The notes below the pieces were generated by a model. The model saw nothing but the letters and a program-made list of their open reading frames with translations. It was not told the DNA's origin and ran no database searches. The position numbers were made by a program, and so were the translations under genes. From Rhodanobacter sp. Root480 (lineage in GTDB: Bacteria > Pseudomonadota > Gammaproteobacteria > Xanthomonadales > Rhodanobacteraceae), in contig NZ_LMEX01000001.1 of assembly GCF_001426645.1 (NCBI RefSeq), positions 882,755 to 946,754 of the forward strand: a DNA stretch of 64,000 nucleotides. The letters are read 5' to 3'. Shown here in pieces: positions 8,599-57,976 of this stretch; positions within the stretch are counted from its first letter, which is position 1, and the number at the start of each line of letters is the position of its first letter.

Positions 8599-8637
8599 CT
8601 CCCTTCATTACAGAATTATCCGGTGTTGTAAACACTC

Positions 8638-8663: not shown

Positions 8664-8680
8664 AGCGGTCGTTGCGACGT

Positions 8681-9238: not shown

Positions 9239-9440
9239 GTGTTTGGCTCCGACAGGTTGAGGTCCATTTTGATGCGCCGACCAGTATAGGTTCCTCCGCG
9301 TTAGGCACCGTGATGACGCCCGGTTTGGCCCGAAACGACCCAGTGGCACGCCGATTGCTTTGTCGATCTCACGGATCACACTGATTTTTCAGGTTTTCTT
9401 GCCGCCCCACCCCGTGCAACAATGGAGGGACGCCAGTGCT

Positions 9441-9455
9441 CATGCCCAGGGCATG
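9441..9455. promoter_or_regulatory. CATGCCC-A-GGGCATG palindrome upstream of the diguanylate cyclase
   Basis: A perfect seven-base inverted repeat with a one-base centre, 65-79 bp upstream of the cyclase start in a 281-bp divergent gap that otherwise shows no gene. It could be an operator; no adjacent regulator identifies it. Confidence 0.3.
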
Positions 9456-9519
9456 ACGGACTTGTTGCAGGGAATACGCATAGTCCGGTGAGGGGAAGTC
9501 AACGTTCAAGGAACGGTCG

Positions 9520-11259
9520 ATGGCCAGGTCGAAAACAATCAGCGCTTTTTGCCACCTCCCGTGGCTCGGCTGTCTGATGCTGAGCCTGCTGTCGATTGGC
9601 ATTGTCCGCGCCGCCACACCACTGGATGGCGCCTGGCGCACGGTGCATGCGGGCGATACGCCGCAACAGGTGCTGCAGGATTTTCACAACGGCACGCTGA
9701 CCCGCTTCGATCCCGCCATGCTGCAGCAGTTCCCGCGCAGCAACCTTGGCAGCTGGGTCGTGCTTGCGCCGCAACCCCCCTGGGTCGATGAAGAAAGGGT
9801 GCTGGCGATTTACCCGCCCCCGGCCGGCATCATCACCATCTATCCCGCGGCAACCGACGTCGTCGCCCCCTTGTCGCGCAGGGATATTTCGGCACCGGCC
9901 CATGGCCACGGCCGGCTGGCGTGGTACGTGCCGACAACACAACCGCCCTCCGCACCGATTGTGCTGAAGTTCGAACCCACGACCGCCGTCGCCGCACCCG
10001 TGCGGTTCGACCTGCAGCCGTGGGGCGAATACCTGCAGAAGGACGCCAGCTGGCTGGTCTTCGCCACCGCGTGCTTCGCCGTGATGCTGGCGATGGTGCT
10101 GATGGCACTGTGTTTTTCGCTGATGCTGCGCGACGTCACCTACACCTGGTACGCGGGCTACATCCTCTGTTATGCGCTGATACAGGCCGCGCAGAGTGGC
10201 TTCCTGTTTCATCCGCTGGAGTGGCATTGGCTGGACGGGATAGCGCCCGCGCTCGAAGCCATAGCCACCGCCGCCTCGGTGGCATTCGCGTCGCTGTTCA
10301 TGGTGCGGTTCTGCGAATTGCAGCGCTACGCACCGCTGCTGCGTGTTCTCATCGGCGGGCTGGCCGTCTGCATGGCGGCGCTGGTCATCATGCAAGGTAG
10401 CCGCATCGACCTGCTCCAGCAGAGGATGTCATTGCTGCTCAATCCGCTGCTGTTGCTGGGTGCCACCTTGCTGTCCATCGCCGCCGTCATCGCCGCCGCA
10501 CGCGGTTCGAGGCATGCGTGGTTTTTCCTGGTCGGTTGGGTACCGCTGCTGGCGCTTACGGCAATCAGCAGCGCACAGATGAACGGTGCGCTGCCCAGCC
10601 TGGGCTGGATCAACCAGGCGGCGCTTGGCGTAGGTGCGTTCGAGGCTATCGTGTTGTCGCTGGGTCTGGCCGACCGTGCGCTGGTGCTGCGCCGCGACCG
10701 CGACACCGTGCGCGTACTGGCCGAACGCGACATGCTGACCAATGCCTTCAACCGCCGCGCATGGATCGAGCGCGCCGAGAAAGCGCTGGCCGGCGATCCC
10801 CCGCAATCACTGGCCGCCCTGTTCCTGGACCTGGATCACTTCAAGCAGCTCAACGACCACCACGGCCACAGCGCGGGCGATCACGCACTGACGTCGGTGG
10901 CGGCAGCGCTTGAAACGGAGCTGCGGCCCGCCGACTTGTTCGGCCGCTATGGCGGCGAGGAATTCGTGGTTTTGCTGACCGGTGCCACAGTGGCGCAAGC
11001 GATGCAGGTGGCCACCCGGCTGTGCCGCCGCGTGCACCGGCTGGAGATTCCGGTGGACGAGGGAGAGCAGCGGCTCACGATCAGTATCGGCATCGCCATG
11101 CGTATCGAGGGCGACACCGTTGCGTCACTGGTGGATCGCGCCGACCAGGCCATGTACAAAGCCAAGCTCGGCGGGCGCAACCGCACCTTTCTGCATCGTG
11201 TCGCCACGCCACACTCGGCACGACCACGGTTGCATATCATCGATGGAAACGGCCGGTAA
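9520..11259 (+). CDS. Diguanylate cyclase with 7TMR-DISM sensor
   Basis: A 579-residue membrane enzyme that makes cyclic di-GMP from two GTP. It has a signal segment (residues 10-32), a periplasmic 7TMR-DISM extracellular domain to about 170, seven transmembrane helices at about 180-385, and a C-terminal GGDEF domain. The active site is GGEEF at 478-482; the inhibitory product-binding site RxxD (RPAD, 469-472) lies exactly five residues before it, so feedback inhibition is expected. LDLDHFKQLNDHHGH is the metal/substrate segment. Family knowledge suggests the DISM domain binds a small ligand, possibly a carbohydrate. Transcribed alone. Confidence 0.93.
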   Translation: MARSKTISAFCHLPWLGCLMLSLLSIGIVRAATPLDGAWRTVHAGDTPQQVLQDFHNGTLTRFDPAMLQQFPRSNLGSWVVLAPQPPWVDEERVLAIYPPPAGIITIYPAATDVVAPLSRRDISAPAHGHGRLAWYVPTTQPPSAPIVLKFEPTTAVAAPVRFDLQPWGEYLQKDASWLVFATACFAVMLAMVLMALCFSLMLRDVTYTWYAGYILCYALIQAAQSGFLFHPLEWHWLDGIAPALEAIATAASVAFASLFMVRFCELQRYAPLLRVLIGGLAVCMAALVIMQGSRIDLLQQRMSLLLNPLLLLGATLLSIAAVIAAARGSRHAWFFLVGWVPLLALTAISSAQMNGALPSLGWINQAALGVGAFEAIVLSLGLADRALVLRRDRDTVRVLAERDMLTNAFNRRAWIERAEKALAGDPPQSLAALFLDLDHFKQLNDHHGHSAGDHALTSVAAALETELRPADLFGRYGGEEFVVLLTGATVAQAMQVATRLCRRVHRLEIPVDEGEQRLTISIGIAMRIEGDTVASLVDRADQAMYKAKLGGRNRTFLHRVATPHSARPRLHIIDGNGR

Positions 11260-11313
11260 CAGGCTTTCGCCGCCGACGCCCACACTGGCGCCTGCTTGAA
11301 GCCTCTGGTTCGG

Positions 11314-13581
11314 TCACCTCAACTCGCGGGCAGCCGCCACCACATCGTCTACACCCGGTAAAACCAGCAAGGCGGCACTCGCCAGCGGCGTGAAGGTGTC
11401 GGCGCCCACGACCCGGCGCAACGGCGTGGCACCGCAGCCGCCTTCGACGATCGCGGTGATCACGCCCTCGCCCACGCCAGCGCTCTTGCGGCCTTCATCC
11501 AGCACCAGGATGCGCTTGGCGCTCTTCGCCTGTGCCGCGATGAAGGCATCGTTGAGCGGCGCCAGCCAGCGCAGGTCGACCACGCGCACCTGCCACTTGA
11601 GCTCTGCTTCGATCGTGCGCGCGGCGCGCAACGCCATCGGCACGCCGTTGCCGAAGGTGAACACCACCAGGTCGTTCGCCCTTTCGTTGTAGACACGGCC
11701 CTCGCCCAGCGTCATCGCCCGGTCGGGCGCGGGATAGTCGAACTGCCACTGGCCGTCGCCGGCCTCGTACAGATCCTTGGTCATGTACAGCGCGATCGGT
11801 TCGAGGAAGGCGCAGACGCGGCCATCGACCTTCGCCAGCGCCATCAGCGTGCGCAGCATCATCGCCGCGTCGTCGCCGCGGCTGGGGCAACCGACCACCA
11901 GGCCGGGGATGTCGCGCAGCGCGGTGATCGAGTTGTCGTTGTGGAAGTGGCCGCCGAAACCCTTCTGGTAACCCAGCGAGGCCACGCGCATCACCATCGG
12001 ATTGCGGTACTGGCCGTTGGAGAAGAACTGCAGCGAGGCCGCCTCGCCGCGAATCTGGTCGCAGGCGTTGTGGAAATACGCCAGGTACTGGATCTCGGGC
12101 ATAGGCAGCATGCCCATGTTGGCGTAACCCTGGGCCAGGCCCAGGATCATCGTTTCATCGAGCAGCGTGTTGAACACGCGGCTGCCCTTGAAGGTCTTGT
12201 TCAGCCCCTTGGTGACGGTGTACACGCCGCCCTTCTGCGCCACGTCCTCGCCAAACAGCAGCGCCTCGGGATACTTCGCCAGCAGGTCGTGCAGGGCCTG
12301 GCCGATCTGGATGGCCAGATGCCGCGGCGGCAGTTTCTCGGGCAGCTTCCCCTCGCCGCCGAACACGGCGAGCCGCCTGTCGGCGTAGTCGGCGCGCTCG
12401 GCTTCGGCCTTCACCGCGGCCGGCGTGTATGGCGCCAGCGGGGCCATCACGTCGTCCAGCGAGGTCAGGCGATGACGCGAATCCGCATCCTCGGCGGCGG
12501 CGAAGCAGCGCTTGCGCGTGGCCTCGTAAAGATTCAGCAGCTCGTCCTTCGAGTACAGACCCGACTCCAGCGCGATACCGGCCGAACGCAGCAACGGGTC
12601 GGAGCATTCGACCGCGAACAGCTCCTCGATGCTGCGCCATTCGATCTCGAAATCGGTGCCGGCGTGGCCCATCACGCGGGTGGTCTTCAGGTGCAGGAAG
12701 GTCGGCCGGCGCGTCGTTCGGCAATGCTCCACCGCGCGCTGCACTTGGGCATAGCCTTCGGCAAGATCCAGACCGTCGGCGAAGAAATAGTCGAGATTGG
12801 CGCGATGCTGGTAATTGCTGGCTACCCAGCCACTCGGTGTCTTCACCGAGATGCCGATGCCGTTGTCCTCGCACACGAACAGCACCGGTGCGGGCAGTTT
12901 CTGGTACGCCGTCCAGGCCGCTGTATTGAACGCGGTCTGCGCACTGGCATGGTTGCTGGAGGCATCGCCGAACGAGCAGATGGTGATGCTGTCGTCGGGA
13001 ATCGGCAGCTGATGGCCGATGCGCCGTGCCTGCTCGATCGCCACCGCAGTGCCCAGCGCCTTGGGCAGGTGCGAGGCGATCGTGGAGGTCTGCGGCAACA
13101 CCCACAGCGGCTTGGAACCCCACACCTTGTGACGGCCACCGGAGGCCGGATCGTCCTTGCTGGCGGCGAAGGACAGCGCTGAGTCCATCACCGGGTCCAT
13201 GCCCGGGATCTTGCGGAAACGTTCGGCCATGAAGGCGCCGGAACGGTAATGCAGGAACGCCGGATCGGTGTGGCGGGCCAACCGCGCCACCATCGCGTTG
13301 CCTTCGTGGCCGGACGAACCGATCGTGTAGAACACCTTGTTCTGCACGCGCAGCACGCGCGCCATCAGGTCGAGGTGGCGCGAGATCAGTTGCGATTCCA
13401 GCAACTCGCGGAAGCCGCGCGCATCCAGCGCACTGCCCGGCAACACGGCCTCGTCGTCGCGTGGCGCGGCACGGGTTTCGCGCTGCCACAGCTGCACGAA
13501 CTCCAGAAAATTCTGGTCGACGACTTCGGCGCGATTGAAGCCCTTGTGGCGAGCACCGAGGGCGAAGGGAATGGCTGTCAT
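11314..13581 (-). CDS. 2-oxoacid dehydrogenase E1, fused alpha and beta subunits
   Basis: A 755-residue thiamine-diphosphate enzyme in which both E1 subunits are joined. The alpha part (to about residue 400) holds the TPP motif from GDASSN (205-210) to CEDN (237-240), plus GSSGHEGN and HYRSGAF. The beta part starts near 420 (AIQIGQALHDLLAKYPEALLFGEDV) and contains NTLLDETMILGLAQGYANMG and the typical C-terminal LVLDEGRKSAGVGEGV. Such E1 enzymes decarboxylate branched-chain or related 2-oxoacids and pass the acyl group to an E2. No E2 or E3 gene is in this window, so it must share subunits encoded elsewhere. Substrate assignment (branched-chain) is family-based inference. Confidence 0.85.
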   Translation of the reverse strand: MTAIPFALGARHKGFNRAEVVDQNFLEFVQLWQRETRAAPRDDEAVLPGSALDARGFRELLESQLISRHLDLMARVLRVQNKVFYTIGSSGHEGNAMVARLARHTDPAFLHYRSGAFMAERFRKIPGMDPVMDSALSFAASKDDPASGGRHKVWGSKPLWVLPQTSTIASHLPKALGTAVAIEQARRIGHQLPIPDDSITICSFGDASSNHASAQTAFNTAAWTAYQKLPAPVLFVCEDNGIGISVKTPSGWVASNYQHRANLDYFFADGLDLAEGYAQVQRAVEHCRTTRRPTFLHLKTTRVMGHAGTDFEIEWRSIEELFAVECSDPLLRSAGIALESGLYSKDELLNLYEATRKRCFAAAEDADSRHRLTSLDDVMAPLAPYTPAAVKAEAERADYADRRLAVFGGEGKLPEKLPPRHLAIQIGQALHDLLAKYPEALLFGEDVAQKGGVYTVTKGLNKTFKGSRVFNTLLDETMILGLAQGYANMGMLPMPEIQYLAYFHNACDQIRGEAASLQFFSNGQYRNPMVMRVASLGYQKGFGGHFHNDNSITALRDIPGLVVGCPSRGDDAAMMLRTLMALAKVDGRVCAFLEPIALYMTKDLYEAGDGQWQFDYPAPDRAMTLGEGRVYNERANDLVVFTFGNGVPMALRAARTIEAELKWQVRVVDLRWLAPLNDAFIAAQAKSAKRILVLDEGRKSAGVGEGVITAIVEGGCGATPLRRVVGADTFTPLASAALLVLPGVDDVVAAARELR

Positions 13582-13608
13582 GGTGTGGTCGTTCTGATCG
13601 GGCGGTGG

Positions 13609-45394: not shown

Positions 45395-45463
45395 GCGCTG
45401 CGTCATCGCACAGCCTTGAGACGCCATTCAAAACGCGGTGGAAACTCACCCTCTCACCGTTCT

Positions 45464-45566
45464 CCCTGAGCGTCGGCCGCGCAGCGGCCAGAGTCGAAGG
45501 GCACGCCTCGTGAACTTTCCCGCATCACTTCGACTTCGCCGCCCTGCGGGCGGCTACGCTCAGTGT
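45464..45566. repeat. Dispersed inverted-repeat element, CTGAGCG...CGCTCAG (copy B)
   Basis: About 100 bp. Left half CCCTGAGCG ... GAGTCGAAGG and right half CACTTCGACT ... CTACGCTCAG repeat the layout of 28773-28872, with different central palindromes (GGCCGCGCAGCGGCC and CCGCCCTGCGGGCGG). It separates the convergent channel and lacI-type genes. Confidence 0.65.
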
Positions 45567-45623
45567 GATCGGAGGAGGAGTTCGCTGCTCCAAGGGCCTT
45601 AAAAATCCAGCCCTCTCCGATCG

Positions 45624-46700
45624 TCACTTCCGCTTTCGCGGCGACGGTGGCGCCGTCGAACCGCGCACCACCAGATCCGCCGACAGCACCCGCTTGCGCG
45701 GCGGCACCTCGGGATCGGCAAGCAACTCGATCAGCATCGCCATGGCCTCGCGCCCCAACGCATTCTTGGGTTGCGCGACGGTGGTCAGCGCGGGCGAGGT
45801 GTAACGCGCGAAACGGATGTCGTCGAAACCCACCACCGAAACGTCCTCCGGCACGCGCAACCCGTGCGAACTCAACGCGCGCATGGCGCCGATCGCCATT
45901 TCGTCGTTGGAGCAGAACACCGCGCTGAACGACTGCCCTTGCGACAGCAGCAACTCGACGGCGCGCTCGCCGGCCTCGATCGAAAAATCGCCGCTGACCA
46001 TCAACGCGGGATCGACGGCGAGCTTCGCCCGCTGCAACGCCAGCCGGTAGCCCTTCTCGCGGTCCACGCAGATCGGGCTCGACGGCGGGCCGGCGACGAA
46101 GGCGATCTGGCGATGCCCCAGCATCACCAGGTAATCGACGGCGGCGCCCGCGGCGGCGACGTTGTCCACGTAGACGCTGGAAATCTGCTTGTCCTTCACG
46201 TACTCGCAGGCGTTGACCACCGGCAGCCGGCCCGGCATGGGAATCTTCGGCACGCGGTGCGACATGGTGATGATGCCGTCGGCCTGGCGCGCGGCGACCA
46301 TGTCGGCATACGCCTGCTCGCGCACCAGGCTGCTCTGGGTTTCGCCCAGCAATACCGAGTAGCCGCTCTCGTGCGCTACCTGCTCGATGCCGCGGATCAC
46401 CTCGGAGAAAAAGGGATTGGCGATGTCCGGCAGCAACGCCACGATCAGTCGCGTCCGTGCCGTGCGCAGGTTGCGTGCCAGCGCATTGGGCGTGTAGCCC
46501 ACGCGTTTGACCACCTCCTGGATGCGCAGGCGCGTGGTCTCGTTGACCACCTCGGGCCGCTGCAATGCCCGCGACACCGTCGCCACTGAAACGTTGGCGA
46601 TGGCGGCGATCTCCTTGATCGTCCTCACCCGCGCGGGCGTCGCGGCCGCGCGAGTTGCGCTGGCGGTGGATCGCTTGCCTCTGGATCCTTCCGAACTCAC
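45624..46700 (-). CDS. LacI-family transcriptional regulator
   Basis: A 358-residue repressor. A basic N-terminal extension of 25 residues precedes the LacI HTH (RTIKEIAAIANVSVATVSRAL, hinge NALARNLRTARTRLIVALLP) and a periplasmic-binding-protein-like sensor domain (IANPFFSEVIRGIEQVA; FCSNDEMAIGAMRAL; VSVVGFDDIRFARYTSPALT). The GTG at 46700 has GAGGAGG upstream and gives a normal length. It is divergent from the sugar operon beginning at 47076, and two matching palindromes lie between them, so it very likely controls that operon with a sugar or 3-keto-sugar inducer. Confidence 0.9.
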   Translation of the reverse strand: MSSEGSRGKRSTASATRAAATPARVRTIKEIAAIANVSVATVSRALQRPEVVNETTRLRIQEVVKRVGYTPNALARNLRTARTRLIVALLPDIANPFFSEVIRGIEQVAHESGYSVLLGETQSSLVREQAYADMVAARQADGIITMSHRVPKIPMPGRLPVVNACEYVKDKQISSVYVDNVAAAGAAVDYLVMLGHRQIAFVAGPPSSPICVDREKGYRLALQRAKLAVDPALMVSGDFSIEAGERAVELLLSQGQSFSAVFCSNDEMAIGAMRALSSHGLRVPEDVSVVGFDDIRFARYTSPALTTVAQPKNALGREAMAMLIELLADPEVPPRKRVLSADLVVRGSTAPPSPRKRK

Positions 46701-46811
46701 GGTCTGCCACCTCCTCGTCGACGCTGCGCCGCACGATAGCACCCGCCTGGCCAACCAACGCGCCATGCGGGGCGCTTCCCAACCCGTCCCCAGCAATTTT
46801 TGTGCAACGCA

Positions 46812-46827
46812 ATGTAATGGATTACAT
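46812..46827. promoter_or_regulatory. LacI-type operator O1, ATGTAATGGATTACAT
   Basis: Perfect seven-base arms ATGTAAT/ATTACAT around GG. Its centre is 120 bp upstream of the regulator's GTG. The matching site at 46952 shares 14 of 16 bases, which makes chance unlikely. Confidence 0.75.
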
Positions 46828-46951
46828 CCAACAGTTGCGCGGGCATTTGCGCATCTGTTACACAGCTTGCCACGTATTCCGACGTTTTTTGCATATTCGC
46901 CTTGCAACGCCGACTGAGGGAAGCCGGGTAAATCCGTCGTTTCCCGCCATC

Positions 46952-46967
46952 ATGTAATCGAATACAT
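46952..46967. promoter_or_regulatory. LacI-type operator O2, ATGTAATCGAATACAT
   Basis: Arms ATGTA/TACAT are perfect around ATCGAA. Its centre lies 140 bp from the centre of O1 and about 116 bp before the first operon gene. The central CG is typical of LacI-family operators. Confidence 0.75.
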
Positions 46968-47075
46968 CGCATGCGGCAGCCATGCCGCCGGAGGGGAGAT
47001 GGCAAGCCAGCCCGTATCGAGCGGCACCCACGCAATGGCAGGCGCAAACGACGCGCCGGACCGCGAGGCATCCGC

Positions 47076-48269
47076 ATGAAGGCCCTCGGCATGGCCCTGG
47101 TCGGGCCAGGCTTCATCGCCGCGCATCACATCGATGCCGTGCGCCGGCTGGGCAATGTCGAGGTCGTGGGCCTTGCCGGTTCCAGTCTGGCCTCGGCGCA
47201 GAAGCGGGCACGCGAGCTTGGCGTTGGACATGCCTACACGGACTACCACGAGTTGCTGGCCGACCCGGCCGTGCAGGTCGTCCACAACACCACGCCCAAT
47301 CACCTGCACCGGGAGATCTCGCTGGCGGCCTTGCGCGCCGGCAAGCATGTGATCTCCGACAAGCCGCTGGCCAGCAACCTGCAGGAAAGCCGCGAACTGC
47401 ACGAGGCCGCGCGCGACGCCGGTGTGGCGCACGTGGTCACGTTCAACTACCGCAGCCATGCGCTGGTGCAACAGGCGCGCGCCATGATCGCCAAGGGCAA
47501 ATTGGGGGCACCTGTATTCGTGCATGGCTGCTACCTGCAGGACTGGCTGACCGACGACACGACCTATTCGTGGCGCCTCGATCCCAAGCGCGGCGGCGCC
47601 AGTTCCGCGCTGGGCGACATCGGCTCGCACTGGTGCGACCTGGCCGAACACGTCACCGGCGCGCGCATCACCGCGGTGCTGGCCGACCTTTACACGGCGG
47701 TGCCGGTGCGCCATGTGGCGGCGGCACCGACGCGCGCTTTCGCCAAGGCAAAAGCGGCACCGCGGCGCGACGTGAAGATCACCAGCGAGGACACCGCCAG
47801 CGTGTTGCTGCGTTTCGACAACGGCGCCCGCGGCTGCGTCACCGTGGGCCAGGTGCTGCCCGGCCACAAGAACGATCTCCGACTGGAAGTGAATGGCCGC
47901 CTCGCCTCGCTGGCATGGCGCCAGGAGAACCCCAACGAGCTGTGGATCGGCCACCACGACCGCGCCAACGCCGTGCTGTCGCGTGATCCGGCGTTGCTCG
48001 ACTCGGCCGCACGCGGCTACGCACACCTGCCCGCCGGCCATCCGGAAGCGTGGAGCGACGCCTTCCGCAACCTGATCGCCGATGCCTACGCCTGGATCCG
48101 CAAGGGCGGCACGCCGCAGACGAAACCGGCCGCGTTGCCGACCTTCGCCGACGGCTACCGCAACGCGCTGGTGATCGATGCCATGCTCAAGAGCCATGCC
48201 GCGGGCGGCGCATGGCAAAACGTGGAAGACGACCGCGAACCACCACGCAAAAGGGGAGTACGGAAATGA
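47076..48269 (+). CDS. Gfo/Idh/MocA-family oxidoreductase
   Basis: A 397-residue NAD(P)-dependent sugar oxidoreductase. The dinucleotide loop is MALVGPGFIAAHHIDAVRRL; the family Lys is in the KP motif of GKHVISDKPLASNLQES, and the second domain carries RGGASSALGDIGSHWCDLAE with the usual catalytic Asp/His pair. There is no signal peptide, so it acts in the cytoplasm. Relatives reduce 3-keto-glycosides or 3-keto-glucose (for example Escherichia coli YcjS), which fits the cluster. First gene of the operon; its stop overlaps the transporter start (ATGA). Confidence 0.88.
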   Translation: MKALGMALVGPGFIAAHHIDAVRRLGNVEVVGLAGSSLASAQKRARELGVGHAYTDYHELLADPAVQVVHNTTPNHLHREISLAALRAGKHVISDKPLASNLQESRELHEAARDAGVAHVVTFNYRSHALVQQARAMIAKGKLGAPVFVHGCYLQDWLTDDTTYSWRLDPKRGGASSALGDIGSHWCDLAEHVTGARITAVLADLYTAVPVRHVAAAPTRAFAKAKAAPRRDVKITSEDTASVLLRFDNGARGCVTVGQVLPGHKNDLRLEVNGRLASLAWRQENPNELWIGHHDRANAVLSRDPALLDSAARGYAHLPAGHPEAWSDAFRNLIADAYAWIRKGGTPQTKPAALPTFADGYRNALVIDAMLKSHAAGGAWQNVEDDREPPRKRGVRK

Positions 48270-49507
48270 AGTGGCGCCTTCGCTTGATGATGCTTTTCCA
48301 ATACGCGATCTGGGGTGCGTGGTACGTCACCGTGGGCACCTGGCTGGGCCAGACGCTGCATTTCAGCGGCACGGAGATCGGCGCCATCGCCGGCACCACG
48401 GCGATCGGCGCGATGATCTCGCCGCTGTTCGCCGGCCTGTTGGCGGACCGCTGGTTCGACACCCGCCGCGTGCTGGTCGCCCTGCAGGTGCTGGGTGCCG
48501 CGCTGCTGGTGTTCGCGGCGCAACAGCAGGCATTCGGCGTGCTCTACGTCACGCTGCTGCTCTACAGCCTCTGCTACATGCCGACCCTGGCGCTGACGAC
48601 CTCGCTGGCGATGCGGCACATCGATGATCCGCGCGAGGAGTTCGGCGCCATCCGTGTGTTCGGCTCGATCGGCTGGATCGTGGTCGGCCTGGTCGTCGGC
48701 GCCGCCGGCATCGAGGCCACCGCATCGCCGCTGTATTTGGCGGCCGGGCTGTCGCTGGCGATGGCGGGCTATTGCCTCACCCTTCCCGCCACCCCGCCGC
48801 TGGCCGGCAACAAGCGTTTCGAGCTGCGCCAGGCGCTGCCGCTGGAAGCCCTGCATCTGCTGCGTGGGCGCTCGATGGCGGTGTTCGCCCTCGCCTCGTT
48901 CCTGATCTGCATCCCGCTGCAGTTCTATTACGCGTTCACCAACCTGTTTCTCAACGAAGTGGGCGTGGTCAACGCGGCCGGCAAGATGACCGGCGGGCAG
49001 ATGTCGGAAATCCTCTGCATGCTGCTGATCCCCTGGTTCTTCCGCCGCCTGGGCGTGAAGTACATGCTGGCAGTAGGCATGCTGGCCTGGGTAGTGCGCT
49101 ACGTGATGTTCGCCTTCGGCACACCGGACGAGCTGATGTGGATGTTGTGGCTGGGCATCATTCTGCACGGCATCTGCTTCGACTTTTTCTTCGTGGTCGG
49201 CCAGATCTACATCGACCGCGAGGCGCCGCCCGCCCTGCGCGCGGCCACCCAGGGCCTGATCACCTTCATCACCTATGGCCTGGGCATGTTCGTGGGTTCG
49301 TGGTTGTCCGGGCTGGCCGTCGATGCCTATGCCGCGACGGACGCCCAGGGCACCGTCGCGCATCAATGGCGTCCGATCTGGCTGACCGCCGCCGGCTTCG
49401 CCGCCGCCGTGCTGGTGCTGTTCGTGCTGCTGTTCAAGGACCGCGAACGCGCCGCGGACCCCGACCTTTCCCACCTCGACCTGGCCACCCGGGAGAAAAC
49501 CCCATGA
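48266..49507 (+). CDS. MFS sugar/nucleoside transporter (NupG-like)
   Basis: A 413-residue twelve-helix transporter of the nucleoside:H+ symporter branch of the major facilitator superfamily. Early motif MLFQYAIWGAWYVTVGTWL and GTTAIGAMISPLFAGLLADRWF (the loop 2-3 signature), then RVFGSIGWIVVGLVVG, and HGICFDFFFVVGQIYIDREA in the second half. Transporters of this type are repeatedly found beside Gfo/Idh/MocA and isomerase genes. It probably imports a keto-sugar or glycoside released in the periplasm. Four-base overlaps connect it with both neighbours. Confidence 0.88.
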   Translation: MKWRLRLMMLFQYAIWGAWYVTVGTWLGQTLHFSGTEIGAIAGTTAIGAMISPLFAGLLADRWFDTRRVLVALQVLGAALLVFAAQQQAFGVLYVTLLLYSLCYMPTLALTTSLAMRHIDDPREEFGAIRVFGSIGWIVVGLVVGAAGIEATASPLYLAAGLSLAMAGYCLTLPATPPLAGNKRFELRQALPLEALHLLRGRSMAVFALASFLICIPLQFYYAFTNLFLNEVGVVNAAGKMTGGQMSEILCMLLIPWFFRRLGVKYMLAVGMLAWVVRYVMFAFGTPDELMWMLWLGIILHGICFDFFFVVGQIYIDREAPPALRAATQGLITFITYGLGMFVGSWLSGLAVDAYAATDAQGTVAHQWRPIWLTAAGFAAAVLVLFVLLFKDRERAADPDLSHLDLATREKTP

Positions 49508-50394
49508 CGATGACCCGCAGGCAGTTCCTGTCCCGCTCGGCGCTTTGCGGCACCGCTGCATTTCTGGCCACCAGCACCGCCGGCAGGGCATTCGCCGCCG
49601 CCGCGCAGGGCAAGCCGATGGGCATCCAGCTCTACATGATCCTCAAGGCCTATCAGGACGATCCGGTCGGCGCGCTGAAAACACTCAAGGAAATCGGCTA
49701 CACCGAGATCGAGGCCATCATCACCAGCACCGCCGCCACCCTGCGCGGCCAGCTGGACGCCACCGGCCTGCGCTGCCCCAGCCTGCACTTCGACGGCATC
49801 GGTTTCGAGCCGGGCATCGAGGCGGCGCACACGCTGGGCGCGCAGTACATCGTCAGCAGCATGCTGCCGGCGATCATGCAGAAAGAGCTGGCCGCCAAGG
49901 GCAAGCATGGCGAGCAGGACTATTCACTCGACGGCGCCAAACGCACCGCGGAATACGCCAATCGCCTGGGCGAAAAAGCGAAGCAGGCGGGCCTGCAGTA
50001 TGCGTATCACAACCACCACCTGGAATTTTCCGATGTGGGCGGCGGCCAGACGTTCTACGACGTGCTGCTGAAGGAAACCCGGCACGACCTGGTGAAGTTC
50101 GAACTGGACTGCGGCTGGGTCCACGTCGGCGGCAAGAACCCCGCGGATTACTTCAAGGCCAACCCCGGCCGCATGCCGCTGATGCACGCCAAGGATTTCC
50201 TGCCCGGCGCCGGCAACGGGAACTACCCGGGTTCCGAACTGGGCCGCGGCACGCTCGACTACCAGCCGATCATGGCCGCGGCGGACAGCGCCGGGTTGAA
50301 GCATTGCTTCGTCGAGCAGGAAGGCCCGTTCTCGCGCATCAGCCAGCTCGACGCCGCGCGCATCGACTACGACTACCTGCGTCCGTGGCGCTGA
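49504..50394 (+). CDS. Tat-exported TIM-barrel sugar isomerase/epimerase-like protein (1)
   Basis: A 296-residue protein of the AP endonuclease 2-like sugar isomerase/epimerase superfamily. The N-terminus is a Tat signal (MTMTRRQFLSRSALCGTAA ... AFAAA), so it folds in the cytoplasm, perhaps with its metal, and is exported. Barrel motifs: MGIQLYMILKAYQDD, YAYHNHHLEFSDVG (metal Glu), VKFELDCGWVHVGG (Asp), PLMHAKDFLPG (His) and CFVEQEGPF (Glu), so a full metal site is plausible. In this setting a 3-keto-sugar epimerase or eliminase role is inferred. It overlaps the transporter gene by four bases. Confidence 0.85.
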   Translation: MTMTRRQFLSRSALCGTAAFLATSTAGRAFAAAAQGKPMGIQLYMILKAYQDDPVGALKTLKEIGYTEIEAIITSTAATLRGQLDATGLRCPSLHFDGIGFEPGIEAAHTLGAQYIVSSMLPAIMQKELAAKGKHGEQDYSLDGAKRTAEYANRLGEKAKQAGLQYAYHNHHLEFSDVGGGQTFYDVLLKETRHDLVKFELDCGWVHVGGKNPADYFKANPGRMPLMHAKDFLPGAGNGNYPGSELGRGTLDYQPIMAAADSAGLKHCFVEQEGPFSRISQLDAARIDYDYLRPWR

Positions 50395-50436
50395 GCGCCC
50401 ACCTTTCCGTCTGATCGCCTTTTCCCCGGGGGCTCC

Positions 50437-52128
50437 ATGAACAACCACATCTACGACGCCATCGTCATCGGCACCGGCATCAGCGGCGGCTGGGCCGCCA
50501 AGGAACTGACCGAGAAAGGACTCAAGACCCTGGTACTGGACCGCGGCCGCATGGTCGAGCACGGCGACTACCCCACGGCGATGAAGGCACCGTGGGAGCT
50601 GCCCTACGCCGACGAGCCCACGCAGGAAGATATCCGCCGACATCCGGTCCACACGCGCCCCTCCTTCTACGGCATCAAGCAATCCACCAAGCACTGGTTC
50701 GTCGACGACCTCGACAACCCGTACGAGGAAACCAGGCCGTTCGACTGGTTCCGCGGCTACCAGGTCGGCGGCCGCTCGCTGATGTGGGGCCGGCAGAGCT
50801 ACCGCTTCAGCCCGATGGATTTCGAGGCCAACGGCAAGGATGGCGTGGGCGTGGACTGGCCCATCCGCTATGACGACCTGGCGCCCTGGTACGACTACGT
50901 CGAGGAGTTCATCGGCGTCAGCGGCGACACCGATCATCTGGCGCAACTGCCCGATGGCCAGTACCTGCCGCCGATGGAGCTCAACGCCGTCGAGAAGGAC
51001 TTCCGCGAGAAGCTGGCCAGCAAGCTGGGGCGCAGGCTGATCATCGGCCGCACCGCCAACCTGTCCGCGCCGCTGAAGCACGACAAGAGCCCGCAACGCG
51101 CGCCCTGCCAATACCGCAACCTGTGCATGCGCGGCTGCCCGTACGGCGCCTATTTCAGCAGCAACTCGTCCACCCTGCCCTCGGCCCAGCGCACCGGCAA
51201 CATGACCATGGTGGCCAACGCCATCGTGCACGAGCTGATCTACGACAACGCCAAGGGCAAGGCCACCGGCGTGCGCGTATTGAATGCCGAAACCGGCCAG
51301 CAGACCGACTACTTCGCGCGCATCATCTTCGTCTGCGCCTCCACCTTCGGCACCGCGCACCTGCTGCTCAACTCCACCTCCAGCCGCTTCCCCAACGGCT
51401 TCGGCAACGACAGCGGCGAGGTGGGCCACAACATCATGGACCATGTGTTCGGCAGCGGTGCCGGCGCCCTGGTGGATGGCCACGAGGACCGCTACTACAC
51501 CGGCCGTCGCCCCAATGGTTTCTACATCCCCCGCTACCGCAACATCGGCAGCGACAAGCGCGACTACCTGCGCGGCTTCGGTTACCAGGGTGGCGCCAGC
51601 CGCCAGGACTGGACGCGACTGGTCGACCAACCGTTGCTTGGCGACGAGCTGAAACGCGCGGCCGAGGCGCCGGGCCCCTGGCGCATCGGGATGACCGGCT
51701 TCGGCGAGATGCTGCCGTCGCACAGCAACCACGTCACCCTGGATCGCAACCGCAAGGACAAATACGGCCTTCCCCTGCTCAACTTCGACGCCGCCCACGG
51801 CGAGAACGAAGTCCGCATGGAGAAGGACATCATGAACGACGCCGCCGAGATGCTCAGTGCCGCCGGCTACCGCAACGTGACGCCCTACAAGACCAAGGCG
51901 AACGTGGGTGCCGGCATCCACGAAATGGGCACCGCGCGCATGGGCCGCGACCCGAAGACCTCGGTGCTCAATGGCTGGAACCAGATGCACGCCTGCAAGA
52001 ACGTCTTCGTCACCGACGGCTCCTGCATGGCCTCGTCCGCCTGCCAGAACCCGTCGCTGACCTACATGGCGCTGACGGCACGCGCGGCCAACCATGCCGT
52101 GGAAGAACTGAAGCGCGGCAACGTCTGA
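50437..52128 (+). CDS. Fe-S GMC sugar dehydrogenase, large catalytic subunit
   Basis: A 563-residue GMC flavoprotein of the bacterial FAD-glucose dehydrogenase / fructose dehydrogenase / LacA class. FAD motif VIGTGISGGWAAKELTEKG at 10-28. Three cysteines C224-x5-C230-x3-C234 (CQYRNLCMRGCPYGAYF) correspond to the [3Fe-4S] ligands of that class. The active-site region is GAGIHEMGTARMG (H495) and ACQNPSLTYMAL. It has no signal peptide and would ride on the Tat signal of the next gene's product. Homologues oxidise the C3 hydroxyl of glucosides or disaccharides, or C1 of glucose. The start is preceded by GGGGG. Confidence 0.88.
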   Translation: MNNHIYDAIVIGTGISGGWAAKELTEKGLKTLVLDRGRMVEHGDYPTAMKAPWELPYADEPTQEDIRRHPVHTRPSFYGIKQSTKHWFVDDLDNPYEETRPFDWFRGYQVGGRSLMWGRQSYRFSPMDFEANGKDGVGVDWPIRYDDLAPWYDYVEEFIGVSGDTDHLAQLPDGQYLPPMELNAVEKDFREKLASKLGRRLIIGRTANLSAPLKHDKSPQRAPCQYRNLCMRGCPYGAYFSSNSSTLPSAQRTGNMTMVANAIVHELIYDNAKGKATGVRVLNAETGQQTDYFARIIFVCASTFGTAHLLLNSTSSRFPNGFGNDSGEVGHNIMDHVFGSGAGALVDGHEDRYYTGRRPNGFYIPRYRNIGSDKRDYLRGFGYQGGASRQDWTRLVDQPLLGDELKRAAEAPGPWRIGMTGFGEMLPSHSNHVTLDRNRKDKYGLPLLNFDAAHGENEVRMEKDIMNDAAEMLSAAGYRNVTPYKTKANVGAGIHEMGTARMGRDPKTSVLNGWNQMHACKNVFVTDGSCMASSACQNPSLTYMALTARAANHAVEELKRGNV

Positions 52129-52139
52129 GGAGAAACGCC

Positions 52140-52727
52140 ATGAATCGTCGCGAATGGTTGAAGTGCATGTCCGCGCTGGCGCTCAGCGCGGCAGGCGCGC
52201 CGTTGCTGGCCGTATTCGATGCGCATGCCGCCGCGCAAAAACCCGCCATCGGCCCCCGTTTTTTCAGCCCGCCGCAAGCGGACGTGGTGGCCGCCGTGGT
52301 CGACATCATCATCCCGCGCACCGATACCCCCGGCGCGCTGGACGCGGGCGTGCCGCGTTTCATCGCGCAGATGTTCCGGGACGTGTATTCCAAGGCGGAA
52401 CAAGCGCGCTACCTGGGCGCACTGGCCGCATTTGAGCGCGCGGGCGGCACGCCGTTCCTGCAACTCGACGCCGCGCAGCGCAAGGCGCTGGTCACCCGGC
52501 TGCATGGCGAGGCGCTCGCCAGCGGCCGCCACATCGACCACAACTCCGCCGCGGCCTTCGTGCTGATGAGCAAGAAGCTGGCGATGCTGGGTTACTTCAT
52601 GTCCGAACCCGGCTGCACGCAGGTGCTGCAGTACGTGGCCGTCCCCGGCGGCTACCAGGCCGATGTGCCCTTGTCCAAGGCGGGCAATGGCCGCGCCTGG
52701 GCTGTCGAAACCGTCTTGAGGCTCTGA
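52140..52727 (+). CDS. Small subunit of the GMC dehydrogenase (gluconate 2-dehydrogenase subunit 3 family)
   Basis: A 195-residue Tat-exported chaperone/subunit. The twin-arginine signal is MNRREWLKCMSALALSAAG, cut after AHA. The mature part has VVDIIIPRTDTPGALDAGVP, a signature of the family that accompanies FAD-dependent glucose, gluconate, fructose and lactose dehydrogenases (LacC-like). It is needed for folding and export of the catalytic subunit, which lies 11 bp upstream. An AGGAG ribosome site precedes the ATG. The cytochrome c subunit that normally completes such complexes is not in the window. Confidence 0.88.
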   Translation: MNRREWLKCMSALALSAAGAPLLAVFDAHAAAQKPAIGPRFFSPPQADVVAAVVDIIIPRTDTPGALDAGVPRFIAQMFRDVYSKAEQARYLGALAAFERAGGTPFLQLDAAQRKALVTRLHGEALASGRHIDHNSAAAFVLMSKKLAMLGYFMSEPGCTQVLQYVAVPGGYQADVPLSKAGNGRAWAVETVLRL

Positions 52728-52730
52728 CCC

Positions 52731-53792
52731 ATGAAAACACTCAAAGGCCCGGGCATCTTCCTGGCGCAATACGCGGGCAACTCCGCACCGTTCGACACCT
52801 TGCCCAACATCGCCCGCTGGGCGTCGTCGCTGGGTTTTGTCGGTGTGCAGATCCCCTCCAACGACACCCGCCTGTTCGACCTGGAGCAGGCCGCCGCCAG
52901 CAAGACGTATTGCGACGATATCGCCGGCATGCTGGCCGAACACGGGCTGGCAGTGACCGAGCTGTCCACGCATCTGCAGGGGCAGCTCGTGGCATCGCAC
53001 CCGGCCTACGACGCATTGTTCGACGGCTTCGCCCCGCCCGCGCTGCGTGGCAACGTGGTCGGGCGCCAGGCGTGGGCGGTTGAGCAGCTCAAGCTGGCGG
53101 CGAAAGCCAGCAAGCACCTCGGCCTCACCGCGCACGCCACCTTCTCCGGCGCGCTGGCCTGGCATCTGTTCTATCCGTGGCCGCAACGTCCGGCCGGCTT
53201 GATCGAGCAGGCGTTTGCGGAACTGGGCAAGCGCTGGCGTCCAATCCTCGACGCGTTCGACGACGCTGGTGTGGACGTCTGTTTCGAACTGCATCCGGGC
53301 GAGGACCTGCACGACGGCGCCACGTTCGAGCGCTTCCTCGATGCGGTGGACCAGCATCCGCGCGCCAACATCCTCTACGACCCCAGCCACATGGTGCTGC
53401 AGCAGCTGGACTATCTCGCCTTCATCGACCTCTATCACGAGCGCATCCGCGCCTTCCACGTGAAGGACGCCGAGTTCCGCCCCAACGGCCGCTCGGGCGT
53501 CTATGGCGGCTACCAGAGCTGGATCGACCGCCCCGGCCGTTTCCGCTCGTTGGGCGACGGGCAGATCGACTTCCGCTCGATCTTCAGCAAGTTCGCGCAA
53601 TACGGCTACCCGGGCTGGGCCGTACTGGAATGGGAGTGCTGCATCAAGGACGCCGAGCAAGGCGCGGCCGAAGGCGCGACGTTCATCCGCGAACACATCA
53701 TCAAGGTCACCGGGCGCGCATTCGATGACTTCGCCGCAACCGGCGCCGACGCGGCGTTCAATCGCCGCGTGCTGGGGATGGACGCGTCATGA
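52731..53792 (+). CDS. Cytoplasmic TIM-barrel sugar isomerase/epimerase-like protein (2)
   Basis: A 353-residue protein of the same superfamily without any signal peptide. Metal-site motifs are VDVCFELHPGEDLHDG (Glu), NILYDPSHMVLQQLDY (Asp, His), IRAFHVKDAEFRPNG (His) and AVLEWECC (Glu). Its N-terminus LKGPGIFLAQYAGNSAPF differs from the two exported barrels. The lack of a signal places it with the Gfo/Idh/MocA oxidoreductase in the cytoplasm, where it may isomerise the imported 3-keto-sugar before reduction; this is inference from location and gene company. The next gene overlaps by four bases. Confidence 0.85.
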   Translation: MKTLKGPGIFLAQYAGNSAPFDTLPNIARWASSLGFVGVQIPSNDTRLFDLEQAAASKTYCDDIAGMLAEHGLAVTELSTHLQGQLVASHPAYDALFDGFAPPALRGNVVGRQAWAVEQLKLAAKASKHLGLTAHATFSGALAWHLFYPWPQRPAGLIEQAFAELGKRWRPILDAFDDAGVDVCFELHPGEDLHDGATFERFLDAVDQHPRANILYDPSHMVLQQLDYLAFIDLYHERIRAFHVKDAEFRPNGRSGVYGGYQSWIDRPGRFRSLGDGQIDFRSIFSKFAQYGYPGWAVLEWECCIKDAEQGAAEGATFIREHIIKVTGRAFDDFAATGADAAFNRRVLGMDAS

Positions 53793-54691
53793 CCGCCAGC
53801 GGCATCACCCGTCGCGATGCGCTGGCCTGGCTCGGCACTACCATCACGGCGCTGGGCGCCGCGCCATGGCTGGCCGCATCGGCCGACAGCGGGTCGCGCC
53901 CGCCCCGGTCGCAAAAGATGACGCCAGGGCGCCTGAAGCAGTCGCTGAGCCGCTGGACCTCGCAGGCGCCGCTGCCGGAATTGTGCCGGCGGCTCAAGGG
54001 AATCGGTTTTGCCGGCGTCGATCTGGTCTACGCGGACGAATGGGCGGTGGTCAACGACAGCGGCCTGGCCGTCACCATGGGCTACCCCGCCAAGCGCGAC
54101 AATTTCCTCACCATGGGTTTCAACAACCCGGCCCATCACGCCGTGCTGCTGAAGGAACTGGAAGCCGCCATCCCGCTGGCCAAGCGCGCGGGCGTGACCA
54201 ACCTGATCACGATGTTCGGCAACCGCCAGCCGGGCATCGATGAAGGCCACGCCATCGACAACTGCGTCGCCGGGCTTTCGAAGATCGCGCCGTATGCGGC
54301 CGAGCACGGCATCACGATCTGCGTGGAGCTACTGAACAGCAAGGTCGACCACCCCGGCTACCAGGGCGACAGCACGCGCTTCGGCGTGGCCGTGATGAAG
54401 GGCGTCGACTCACCCCACGTGAAGCTGCTCTACGACATCTACCACATGCAGATCATGGAGGGCGACGTGATCCGCACGATCCGCGACAACATCGCGTGGA
54501 TCGGCCATTTCCACACCGCCGGCGTGCCGGGCCGCCACGAGATCGACGACACCCAGGAGCTCAACTACCACGCCATCGCCAAGGCGATCGCGGATCTGGG
54601 CTTCGACGGCTATCTCGCGCACGAATTCGTGCCGGCAGGGCCCGACCCGTTCGCCGCCTTCGCCGAGGCGGTCAGGGTGTGTACGGTCTGA
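53789..54691 (+). CDS. Tat-exported TIM-barrel protein, hydroxypyruvate-isomerase-like (3)
   Basis: A 300-residue barrel protein with an N-terminal Tat-type signal ([19 protein letters not shown], residues 5-23). Downstream, [47 protein letters not shown] and [10 protein letters not shown] supply the Glu-Asp-His-Glu metal set and the [10 protein letters not shown] loop typical of hydroxypyruvate isomerase relatives. Exported members of this family next to DUF1080 and GMC genes likely handle keto-sugars in the periplasm, not hydroxypyruvate. It overlaps the preceding gene (ATGA). Confidence 0.85.
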
Positions 54692-54714
54692 CTTCCCCAG
54701 TTTCGGAGCTGCCC

Positions 54715-55497
54715 ATGACTTGGCGAACCGTGTTGATCTTCACCGCGCTGGCTACCGCCGCACCCTCTTTCGCCACTACCGCGGATCACCCGCCGACCGA
54801 TCCCAAGGCCACCGAACAATGGCAGCCGGTGCCGAAGCTGGTGACACCGGGCGAGCACGACGCCGCACCGCCCTCGGATGCGATCGTGCTGTTCGACGGC
54901 CGCAACCTCGATCGATGGGAATCGGTCGACGACCATTCGCCGGCCCGCTGGAAAGTCCACGATGGCGTGCTGACGGTCAACAAGAACGCCGGCAACATCC
55001 AGACCCGGCAGCGGTTCAAGAACTATCAGCTGCACCTGGAATGGCAGGTGCCGGCGGATATCGCCGGCGAAGGCCAGGCGCGCGGCAACAGCGGCCTGTT
55101 CCTGGCCTCGACCGGGCCGGGCGACGCGGGCTACGAACTGCAAATCATGGATTCGTGGAAAAACCCCACCTACGTCAATGGCCAGGCCGCCAGCGTCTAC
55201 AAACAGACGCCGCCGCTGGTGAACGCCATGCGTCCGCCGGGCGCATGGCAAACCTACGACGTCATCTGGACAGCACCGGTGTTCGCCGCCGACGGCACGC
55301 TCACCGCGCCGGCCTACGTCACCGTGCTTCACAACGGCGTGCTGGTGCAAAACCACACCGCGCTGACCGGCGAAACCGTCTACATCGGCAAGCCGGCCTA
55401 CACGCCGTATACCGACGCGCCGATCAAGCTGCAGGCGCACGGCGATCCCTCGCTGCCCATCAGCTTCCGCAATATCTGGGTGCGTCCGCTGGATTGA
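54715..55497 (+). CDS. Secreted DUF1080 protein, 3-keto-glycoside hydrolase family
   Basis: A 260-residue protein with a Sec signal ([15 protein letters not shown]). The rest is a concanavalin-like sandwich of the DUF1080 / 3-keto-disaccharide hydrolase family: [96 protein letters not shown] and [11 protein letters not shown]. Family members cleave disaccharides or glycosides already oxidised at C3. It is the last gene of the operon, in the compartment where the GMC enzyme acts. GGAG precedes the ATG. Confidence 0.9.
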
Positions 55498-55601
55498 GCG
55501 GTCGTTGCGGCCGCGTAGCGCCGCACAACGAAAAGCGAACAGCCCCAACGGCCGCAGTGTTTATACTCGGCCGCTTCGCATGCGACAGGAACACACGCAC
55601 C

Positions 55602-56524
<923 letters not shown>

Positions 56525-57361: not shown

Positions 57362-57658
57362 TCAACGCCGGTCCGACGTGTGCGCGGCGACGAAGCTGCG
57401 CAGCACGTCGTTGATCCGCGTCTGGTAACCCGCCCCCCCGTCCTTGAAGTAATCAAGCACGTCCCGGTCGATGCGCAGGGTCACCTGCGCCTTTGGCTCG
57501 GCGCGCGCGGGACGATGCGCCGCCCAGAACGCAGGCGACAGCGCCGGAATGTCGCTGTAGTCGATGGCCTCATCCGGCATGTCCGCGACGGCTTGCATGC
57601 GTTTGCGTTGCGCGGTGGCGAGCGGCTTAGGGTGTTTGGGATCAATTTTGTACTTCAT
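57362..57658 (-). CDS. brnA: BrnA-type antitoxin
   Basis: A 98-residue antitoxin. The N-terminal half is basic (MKYKIDPKHPKPLATAQRKR); the C-terminal half is a ribbon-helix-helix domain (AQVTLRIDRDVLDYFKDGGAGYQTRINDVLRSFV) that in the family binds DNA and neutralises the toxin. Its ATG overlaps the 3' end of brnT by 17 bases, so it is translated from the same message, with the toxin first, as usual for this system. Confidence 0.9.
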   Translation of the reverse strand: MKYKIDPKHPKPLATAQRKRMQAVADMPDEAIDYSDIPALSPAFWAAHRPARAEPKAQVTLRIDRDVLDYFKDGGAGYQTRINDVLRSFVAAHTSDRR

Positions 57659-57926
57659 GATAAATCGCTCGCTCGTAAGCGTTGGCCTTGCGGGCCGAAA
57701 TGATGCGTGTGACCTCGCCGTGGACACCACGCACGGCGTGCACTACCACCAGCAGCACGGGATCCACCGAGCCGATGCTCAGCCAACGCTCCTCTCCGTA
57801 CTCCTCGCGATCATCGAGCATGTCGATGCGGCCCGGATCGAGAAACACGCGTGCAGCCTCTTCAAACGCGATGCCGTGCTTGCGCAGATTCAAAGCCGCT
57901 TTGGCATCATCCCACTCGAAGTCCAT
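57642..57926 (-). CDS. brnT: BrnT-type toxin (RelE-fold RNase)
   Basis: A 94-residue ribonuclease toxin of the BrnT family. It shows the full family wording: MDFEWDDAKAALNLRKHGIAFEEA, VFLDPGRIDMLDDREEYGEERW, LVVVHAVRGVHGEVTRIISARKA and YERAIYHEV. BrnT cuts RNA and stops translation under stress. The ATG at 57926 is the conserved start; a TTG ten codons upstream is inside the inverted repeat. The gene lies directly downstream of a perfect 18-bp inverted repeat. Confidence 0.9.
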   Translation of the reverse strand: MDFEWDDAKAALNLRKHGIAFEEAARVFLDPGRIDMLDDREEYGEERWLSIGSVDPVLLVVVHAVRGVHGEVTRIISARKANAYERAIYHEVQN

Positions 57927-57935
57927 TCCTTGGGC

Positions 57936-57976
57936 CCCATCATATGTAACTACCAAATGTAGTTACATATGATGGG
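57936..57976. promoter_or_regulatory. Perfect 18-bp inverted repeat upstream of brnTA
   Basis: Arms CCCATCATATGTAACTAC (57936-57953) and its exact complement (57959-57976) flank CAAAT. The repeat ends nine bases before the brnT start and about 65 bp from the marR stop. It could be the BrnA/BrnT operator, with TACATAT as a -10 element on the minus strand, or a hairpin in the brnT leader. Confidence 0.7.

Follow-up and report, generated by a model that had tools for sequence, protein, structure and literature searches.

An operon of Rhodanobacter sp. Root480 probably encodes an oxidation-elimination-hydration-reduction pathway, divided between two compartments, that achieves net glycoside hydrolysis without a classical glycoside hydrolase. 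We propose this order of steps because the cytoplasmic barrel protein is, by homology, a hydratase and the first exported barrel, TIM1, is lyase-like, and on the same grounds the glycoside is probably cut by beta-elimination. A plausible division of labor places a GMC enzyme, its small subunit, two Tat-exported barrels (TIM1 and TIM2), and a DUF1080 protein in the periplasm and assigns an importer, the hydratase, and a reductase to the cytoplasm. The scheme suggests a chemistry for genes annotated “sugar phosphate isomerase/epimerase,” “nucleoside permease,” and “TIM barrel protein,” and it ties together the Agrobacterium enzymes and the Caulobacter lac genes, each of them only half described so far. 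The features, located in the window (the whole analyzed stretch of 64,000 nucleotides from contig NZ_LMEX01000001.1), are as follows.

45624..46628, minus strand: LacI-family regulator, GTG at 46628 being the likeliest start (Pfam LacI, 54.1 bits; Peripla_BP_3, 144 bits)
46813..46826, unstranded: operator-like palindrome TGTAATGGATTACA, in the window and 13 of 14 loci scanned, at one place in the genome
46953..46966, unstranded: second operator-like palindrome TGTAATCGAATACA, in the window and 14 of 14 loci scanned, at one place in the genome
47076..48269, plus strand: Gfo/Idh/MocA oxidoreductase, probable cytoplasmic 3-keto-glucose reductase (Pfam; place in the conserved cluster)
48266..49507, plus strand: MFS importer of the Nuc_H_symport family, probable importer of the cleaved keto-sugar (PF03825, 369.4 bits)
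49504..50394, plus strand: TIM1, predicted by homology to be a Tat-exported 3-keto-glycoside 1,2-lyase, or beta-eliminase (AtOGE residues; lyase folds)
50437..52128, plus strand: Fe-S GMC flavoprotein without a leader of its own, probable large subunit of a glycoside 3-dehydrogenase (Pfam GMC N and C)
52140..52727, plus strand: Tat-signal small subunit, Gluconate_2-dh3 (PF13618, 103.6 bits)
52731..53792, plus strand: cytoplasmic 2-hydroxy-3-keto-glucal hydratase, by homology (PDB 8RO4, AtHYD; E 2.7e-179)
53789..54691, plus strand: TIM2, predicted Tat-exported isomerase/epimerase-like barrel (conserved site; fold matches; linkage to GMC)
54715..55497, plus strand: secreted protein of the 3-keto-disaccharide hydrolase family, DUF1080 (PF06439, 148.4 bits against a cut-off of 26.8)

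Open reading frames and Pfam matches confirmed the minus-strand LacI gene and eight tightly packed plus-strand genes (47076-55497). Their ends overlap by 4 bp at the Gfo/MFS, MFS/TIM1, and hydratase/TIM2 joints and are separated by 42 bp (TIM1-GMC), 11 bp (GMC-small subunit), 3 bp (small subunit-hydratase), and 23 bp (TIM2-DUF1080), bearing out an earlier note on this DNA that described eight genes with overlaps or short gaps. The families are also those it named: Gfo/Idh/MocA, Nuc_H_symport, three AP_endonuc_2 barrels, GMC, Gluconate_2-dh3, and 3keto-disac_hyd (PF06439, formerly DUF1080). The same note was right that glycoside hydrolases and TonB receptors are missing from the Pfam matches of the operon proteins; position 46701, where it began the operon, falls in the LacI-Gfo intergenic stretch and is not a gene start. 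The whole genome holds five GH3 matches and one GH1 match. Twin-arginine (Tat-like) leaders were recognized by eye, relatives being inspected as well, on TIM1, the small subunit, and TIM2. Scans of positions 46500-55800 were uninformative, giving 0 sigma-70 promoters versus 1.5 in shuffled sequence and 8 terminator-like sites versus 6.2, near the shuffle level.

The GTG at 46628 is the sole start codon among residues 71-100 of the LacI open reading frame and lies directly ahead of the helix-turn-helix. Both palindromes occur together in 14 of the 15 regions scanned (the window plus 14 loci), and the LacI protein would repress through these two conserved putative operators until an inducer binds. 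The palindrome pair strengthens the earlier proposal of a LacI-linked, two-compartment 3-keto-glycoside operon, as do relatives in which the periplasmic genes stand apart from the cytosolic ones.

The first step would be oxidation of C3 of the glycoside in the periplasm by the GMC/small-subunit flavoenzyme, as its families suggest. The best PDB match of the GMC protein is the fructose dehydrogenase large subunit, with whose cysteines a CX5CX3C motif starting at Cys224 aligns; the motif is present in 80/80 GMC relatives, followed directly by Pro in 61 and not in 19, which upholds the description of this protein as an Fe-S enzyme. The small subunit has an RREWL leader and lies at most 1.5 kb from the GMC gene in 48 of 65 distant loci, and at the level of Pfam families the pair matches the flavin GMC dehydrogenase with Tat-signal small subunit of the Agrobacterium-type pathway. 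The third component of the Caulobacter dehydrogenase, LacC, is presumably a cytochrome c. No LacC-like third component is encoded within the operon, and a genome-wide search with an X. sacchari cytochrome returned six weak matches (best E, 2.3e-5) and no clear partner.

Cleavage is assigned to TIM1 and the DUF1080 enzyme. TIM1 looks like a 3-keto-glycoside 1,2-lyase and not like a YcjR-type isomerase. Five of five active-site residues, corresponding to the metal ligands and catalytic His of AtOGE, are invariant in 29/29 aligned TIM1 sequences (rows L020 and L061 left out), and by fold the protein groups with named 1,2-lyases among the matches listed; identity to AtOGE is 24% over 209 structurally aligned residues. 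Judging from this homology and these residues, TIM1 would act as a metal-dependent lyase that breaks the glycosidic bond of the 3-keto-glycoside in the periplasm.

The DUF1080 enzyme, to judge by its homologs, would also break this bond in the periplasm, and the products of cleavage would be the aglycone plus 2-hydroxy-3-keto-glucal and/or 3-keto-glucose. It is encoded beside the GMC/small-subunit dehydrogenase, as in the Caulobacter LacABC/DUF1080 system, and matches 4qhz with an E value of 1.3e-80. Its residue H242 (protein P0009) is invariant in 20/20 aligned sequences, the window included (L011, L013, L015, L018, and L047 left out). In an alignment to 3osd of very low score (-2.8 bits), this residue sits at a QxHGD motif common to both proteins; we infer that it may correspond to the catalytic H275 of the B. 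thetaiotaomicron lyase. The genome has a second DUF1080 gene outside the window (G000:C1:1062338); no member of the gene set was seen by eye in the 3.7 kb inspected there.

What enters the cytoplasm is probably the glucal or 3-keto-glucose. The MFS protein, which matches general MFS models in Pfam too, would import the cleaved monosaccharide; its position points to this role, as do clusters in Paracoccus and Palleronia where a sugar ABC importer replaces it. The cytoplasmic barrel is, on the strength of its homology, a 2-hydroxy-3-keto-glucal hydratase, with 250 of 350 columns (71.4%) identical to 8RO4, and this AtHYD relative would convert the glucal to 3-keto-glucose. The Gfo/Idh/MocA enzyme, which falls short of the cut-off in each of the ten NCBIfam families listed, would then reduce 3-keto-glucose to glucose. 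Agrobacterium enzymes have been reported for the hydration step, on preliminary evidence, and for the reduction step (PMC10628242).

Two published clusters come closest to the operon. The GlycDH-OGE-HYD-Gfo system of Agrobacterium tumefaciens is a four-enzyme glycoside pathway (PMC10628242), and like it the operon brings together, within a single cluster, genes for a probable flavin glycoside dehydrogenase, a probable beta-eliminase, a hydratase (71% identical between the two), and a Gfo oxidoreductase; unlike it, the Rhodanobacter operon has a Tat-exported lyase and adds DUF1080, the MFS importer, and TIM2. In the lac cluster of Caulobacter crescentus, as far as the available part of its description goes, lacABC is found with the DUF1080 protein CCNA_01705, oxidation is periplasmic, and cleavage is proposed to be so; a multicomponent dehydrogenase, a secreted DUF1080 protein, a transporter, “epimerases,” and a reductase are encoded together there as here, and that description mentions two “epimerases” against three barrels in our operon (PMC9007349). 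The Rhodanobacter operon also differs in lacking a cytochrome c. The LgdA-B1-B2-C levoglucosan pathway of Bacillus smithii follows the same logic of oxidation, elimination, hydration, and reduction but, in the portion of the account at hand, has an NAD-dependent first step, another substrate, and neither a DUF1080 nor a GMC enzyme (PMC7676230). Known 3-keto-beta-glucopyranoside 1,2-lyases include AL1 of Alistipes and BT1 of B. thetaiotaomicron (PDB 8tcd, 8tcr, and 8tct), compared here as proteins. The gene for TIM1, for its part, shares an operon with those for a GMC/Tat small-subunit dehydrogenase and an AtHYD-type hydratase. The suggestion that the operon may be a new pathway variant is partly right; single steps and the similar Caulobacter cluster were already in print (PMC10628242, PMC9007349).

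Of the three barrels, TIM2 alone still looks isomerase- or epimerase-like. Its residues E180, D216, H242, and E279 are invariant in 31/31 aligned sequences (L027, L071, and L073 left out) and line up with those of ketose (psicose) epimerases. In fold and in these E-D-H-E residues, the latter by comparison with the psicose epimerases, TIM2 resembles E. coli YcjR, a 3-keto-D-glucoside 4-epimerase, and the hydroxypyruvate and 2-oxo-tetronate isomerases, from which it differs in its predicted export and in an identity of only 20 to 24% in structural alignments; it reaches 110.1 of 353.45 bits and 105 of 325 bits against the two isomerase equivalog cut-offs. At about 70% identity or more, TIM2 and the GMC enzyme of the operon occur in the same 38 of 197 family genomes, close together in 38/38. 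Strict linkage fails outside the family: in Parabacteroides distasonis (L107) and Haloarcula marina (L111), relatives of TIM2 are plasmid-borne, and the stretches read around them gave no match to GMC. No role for TIM2 was found in the open-access literature searched.

Tentatively, TIM2 would act within the periplasm, either on what the GMC enzyme produces or on a by-product, most likely by moving a carbonyl or inverting the carbon beside it. One possible role, which we hold only tentatively, is that of a YcjR-like periplasmic C4 (or C2) epimerase of 3-keto-sugars, widening the range of usable 3-keto-glycosides, for example to galactosides. YcjR is the best Foldseek match among those listed; however, it is not the closest relative in sequence, since 3ngf (114.3 bits), YgbM (1k77, 76.7 bits), and psicose 3-epimerases (69.9 bits) all score above it (58.4 bits), and the structural Z scores of 3ngf (27.0) and 1k77 (26.2) likewise exceed that of YcjR. 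A rather unlikely alternative is a dedicated periplasmic keto-glycoside isomerase that returns 2-keto-glycosides to the 3-keto form and so spares the GMC product. 3-Keto-glycosides can turn spontaneously into 2-keto-glycosides, which the lyase studied by Kastner et al. did not use. This shift is on record for C-glycosides, but phlorizin, an O-glucoside, yielded only one 3-keto product, which was fairly stable (PMC10628242), a result that speaks against this role. If true, TIM2 would perform a metabolite-repair step inside a catabolic pathway, kept from Rhodanobacteraceae to Bacteroidota. With one conserved enzyme singled out, its reaction is directly testable.

The scheme of the earlier note, in which DUF1080 hydrolyzes the 3-keto-glycoside and three YcjR-like barrels convert the 3-keto-sugar to a common hexose, now appears improbable. 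It draws on the name of PF06439, on the epimerase-type site of TIM2, and on its leading fold match, but the cytoplasmic barrel closely resembles a named hydratase, and TIM1 stands among named 1,2-lyases with the eliminase residues kept. An isomerase function is rejected for the former on its 71% identity to AtHYD (8RO4) and for the latter on that homology and those residues. Oxidation in the periplasm, import, and reduction, as the note had them, are plausible; the isomerization between import and reduction gives way to hydration. Degradation of C-glycosides, with the barrels as subunits of a C-glycoside deglycosidase, is very unlikely, as these enzymes rank 43 to 46, under O-glycoside lyases, in the TIM1 fold matches, the first metal position is His in TIM1 but Glu in those enzymes (PMC10628242), and the nine proteins matched no family beyond those named in Pfam and NCBIfam, libraries that may hold no beta-subunit model. 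An inositol or levoglucosan pathway, with Gfo as the dehydrogenase and the barrels as inosose dehydratase or Lgd enzymes, is most improbable of all, since the NCBIfam matches that hint at it (levoglucosan dehydrogenase, 188.9 bits against a cut-off of 650, and IolG, 95.3 against 355, for Gfo; IolE, 63.4 against 290, for the hydratase) lie far under their curated cut-offs and the four-enzyme levoglucosan route, as partially available to us, offers nothing equivalent to the GMC enzyme, its small subunit, or the exported enzymes (PMC7676230).

The operon is conserved beyond this genome. The neighborhood search proposed in the earlier note found LacI and all eight genes in identical order in 13 of 15 close loci, more than expected by chance; of the other two, L006 is interrupted where its contig ends, and three of the genes are absent from L020. 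The idea that L020 had naturally lost its cytosolic half was considered and dropped. Because that genome carries a divergent Gfo-MFS-hydratase cluster at another place, in which the hydratase match contains one TGA, the case represents replacement or relocation and not a demonstrated functional loss. An alternative route of glycan breakdown is reportedly the subject of a 2024 Nature paper, and the non-hydrolytic glucoside pathway that of a 2024 paper in Angewandte. Similar gene sets occur in Bacteroidota, gammaproteobacteria, and alphaproteobacteria; all families were matched in Halomonas sp. PA16-9 (L112), an unannotated record, but several of them in pieces, and it is left out of the complete sets. 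Some relatives keep the five periplasmic genes grouped and lack the cytosolic ones in the vicinity, which indicates that the gene content splits into separable periplasmic and cytosolic modules of a widespread non-hydrolytic glycoside route.

In the window, which covers positions 882755-946754 of contig C1 in a genome of 3.67 Mb, every one of the eight operon genes claimed by the earlier note was found in the order Gfo, MFS importer, TIM1, GMC, small subunit, hydratase, TIM2, and DUF1080, and its family calls for all of them were borne out by Pfam. Three of the seven joints are four-base overlaps. An RREWL leader is clearly recognisable on the small subunit, and no gene of the operon is indicative of a particular aglycone.

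Eighty named loci were fetched with the GMC protein, and the nine window proteins were placed on them. LacI and all eight genes occur in identical order in 13 of the 15 nearest loci, which belong to Dyella, Luteibacter, and R. fulvus; of the other two, L006 starts at the GMC gene, where its contig ends, and L020 has no Gfo, MFS, or hydratase gene. The nearest of these 80 is Rhodanobacter fulvus (97%). Its DNA matches the window at 92.75% identity over 10.2 kb, past the operon and into downstream ABC transporter genes. Against the three loci used for this comparison (L007, L012, and L016), DNA homology runs from about 45.64 kb to 55.50 kb, with one 60-base match elsewhere, so that LacI and the operon behave as one cassette. 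Two small features lie outside it:

45447-45580, some 135 bases immediately past the LacI gene, matching three places beside LacI in R. fulvus L008 (36-171, 204-337, and 370-456; 87.5-89.7% identity) and therefore resembling a local repeat element
57362-57956, minus strand, a pair of short ORFs that overlap, by eye like a BrnA/BrnT-type toxin-antitoxin pair

Between LacI and the first operon gene lie two 14-base palindromes, TGTAATGGATTACA and TGTAATCGAATACA. Of 15 scanned regions, 14 (the window and L007-L019) contain the pair and L020 only the second, and a whole-genome scan allowing one mismatch placed them at these two sites only. On circumstantial grounds, this conservation and uniqueness make a good case for local control by LacI, with the palindromes as putative operators.

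By gene content, the operon's proteins fall into two separable units, one of five exported or periplasmic members and one of three cytosolic or membrane members. Genome G186, which is the L020 strain (100% identity across 18.6 kb), and genome G196 have LacI, TIM1, GMC, small subunit, TIM2, and DUF1080 in the operon but no Gfo, MFS, or hydratase, with only short, weak Gfo matches beyond LacI. In two genomes of another genus of the family (G008 and G032), TIM2, DUF1080, TIM1, GMC, and the small subunit are neighbours, DUF1080 and TIM1 being separated by a gap, which in G032 was seen by eye to contain a different MFS protein; hydratase and Gfo matches were absent within the 18 kb taken. The L020 genome, Luteibacter sp. 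UNC138MFCol5.1, carries a further cluster at another place, its hydratase match reported with one internal TGA:

G197 contig C7, 372301-375716, divergent second Gfo-MFS-hydratase cluster

This separability supports the two-compartment split proposed in the earlier note, independently of homology.

The cytoplasmic isomerase of that proposal is wrong on present knowledge: the protein (P0007) can be aligned over its full length with the Agrobacterium 2-hydroxy-3-keto-glucal hydratase, PDB 8RO4, with identity in 250 of 350 columns, and by eye no leader was seen on it. The best solved relatives of the GMC enzyme are fructose dehydrogenase large subunits; its CX5CX3C motif, present in 80 of 80 relatives, aligns with fructose dehydrogenase cysteines, which hold a 3Fe-4S cluster in that enzyme. 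The DUF1080 protein is near 4qhz, titled "putative glycosyl hydrolase," and distant from 8rr2, titled 3-keto-disaccharide hydrolase (E 1.1e-5). We infer that the B. thetaiotaomicron lyase is a DUF1080 protein; if so, DUF1080 may act by elimination and hydration instead of direct hydrolysis. A second gene of this family lies outside the window, away from the operon (G000:C1:1062338-1063075).

Every pathway step has a published counterpart: the Agrobacterium four-enzyme route (PMC10628242), levoglucosan use (PMC7676230), and the Caulobacter lac genes with DUF1080, a transporter, two "epimerases," and a reductase (PMC9007349). The role of YcjR is cited in PMC11543891, and PMC10646112 deals with C-glycoside oxidases. 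New here are the joint assignment of function for this operon, the exported lyase in such an operon setting, the split into modules, and the linkage of TIM2 with GMC.

None of the 16 listed same-genus genomes has a TIM2 match, so the operon is rare among sampled members of the genus; two carry a GMC with about 50% identity, and the rest show weaker matches or none. The operon is common in some sister genera, and transfer is likely. Farther away the set is scattered: within 10 kb of GMC in 65 other loci, by script identity thresholds and with loci near contig ends included, we counted the small subunit 52 times, Gfo 15, TIM2 12, TIM1 12, hydratase 11, DUF1080 5, and the MFS gene 4. Complete or near-complete sets occur in two Mucilaginibacter loci, L028 and, with no MFS match, L041, in a Bacteroidetes MAG (L047), and on plasmids of Xanthomonas sacchari, Hymenobacter volaticus, Paracoccus, and Palleronia. 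The Paracoccus and Palleronia clusters carry a sugar ABC importer at the position of the MFS gene, which fits a model in which a monosaccharide would be imported after cleavage outside. The X. sacchari and Hymenobacter clusters include a cytochrome c, unlike that of the window, which has no such gene. Individual plasmid loci were as follows:

L108 (Hymenobacter volaticus), 3386-13602, complete set, c-type cytochrome between hydratase and TIM2
L113 (Sphingobium), 6572-12616, cytosolic trio only, MFS-Gfo-hydratase
L107 (Parabacteroides distasonis), 9875-10756, TIM2 relative (42%) with an RR leader, no other set member within 10 kb
L111 (Haloarcula marina), 6910-8792, archaeal TIM2 relative without a leader

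The Hymenobacter plasmid also bears a second TIM1-like barrel on the opposite strand, and the Sphingobium trio is followed by an uncharacterised gene of 2.2 kb and one for a cytochrome c. The Haloarcula TIM2 relative directly follows a Gfo/Idh/MocA gene, beside a beta-galactosidase gene, with further Gfo and barrel genes around it.
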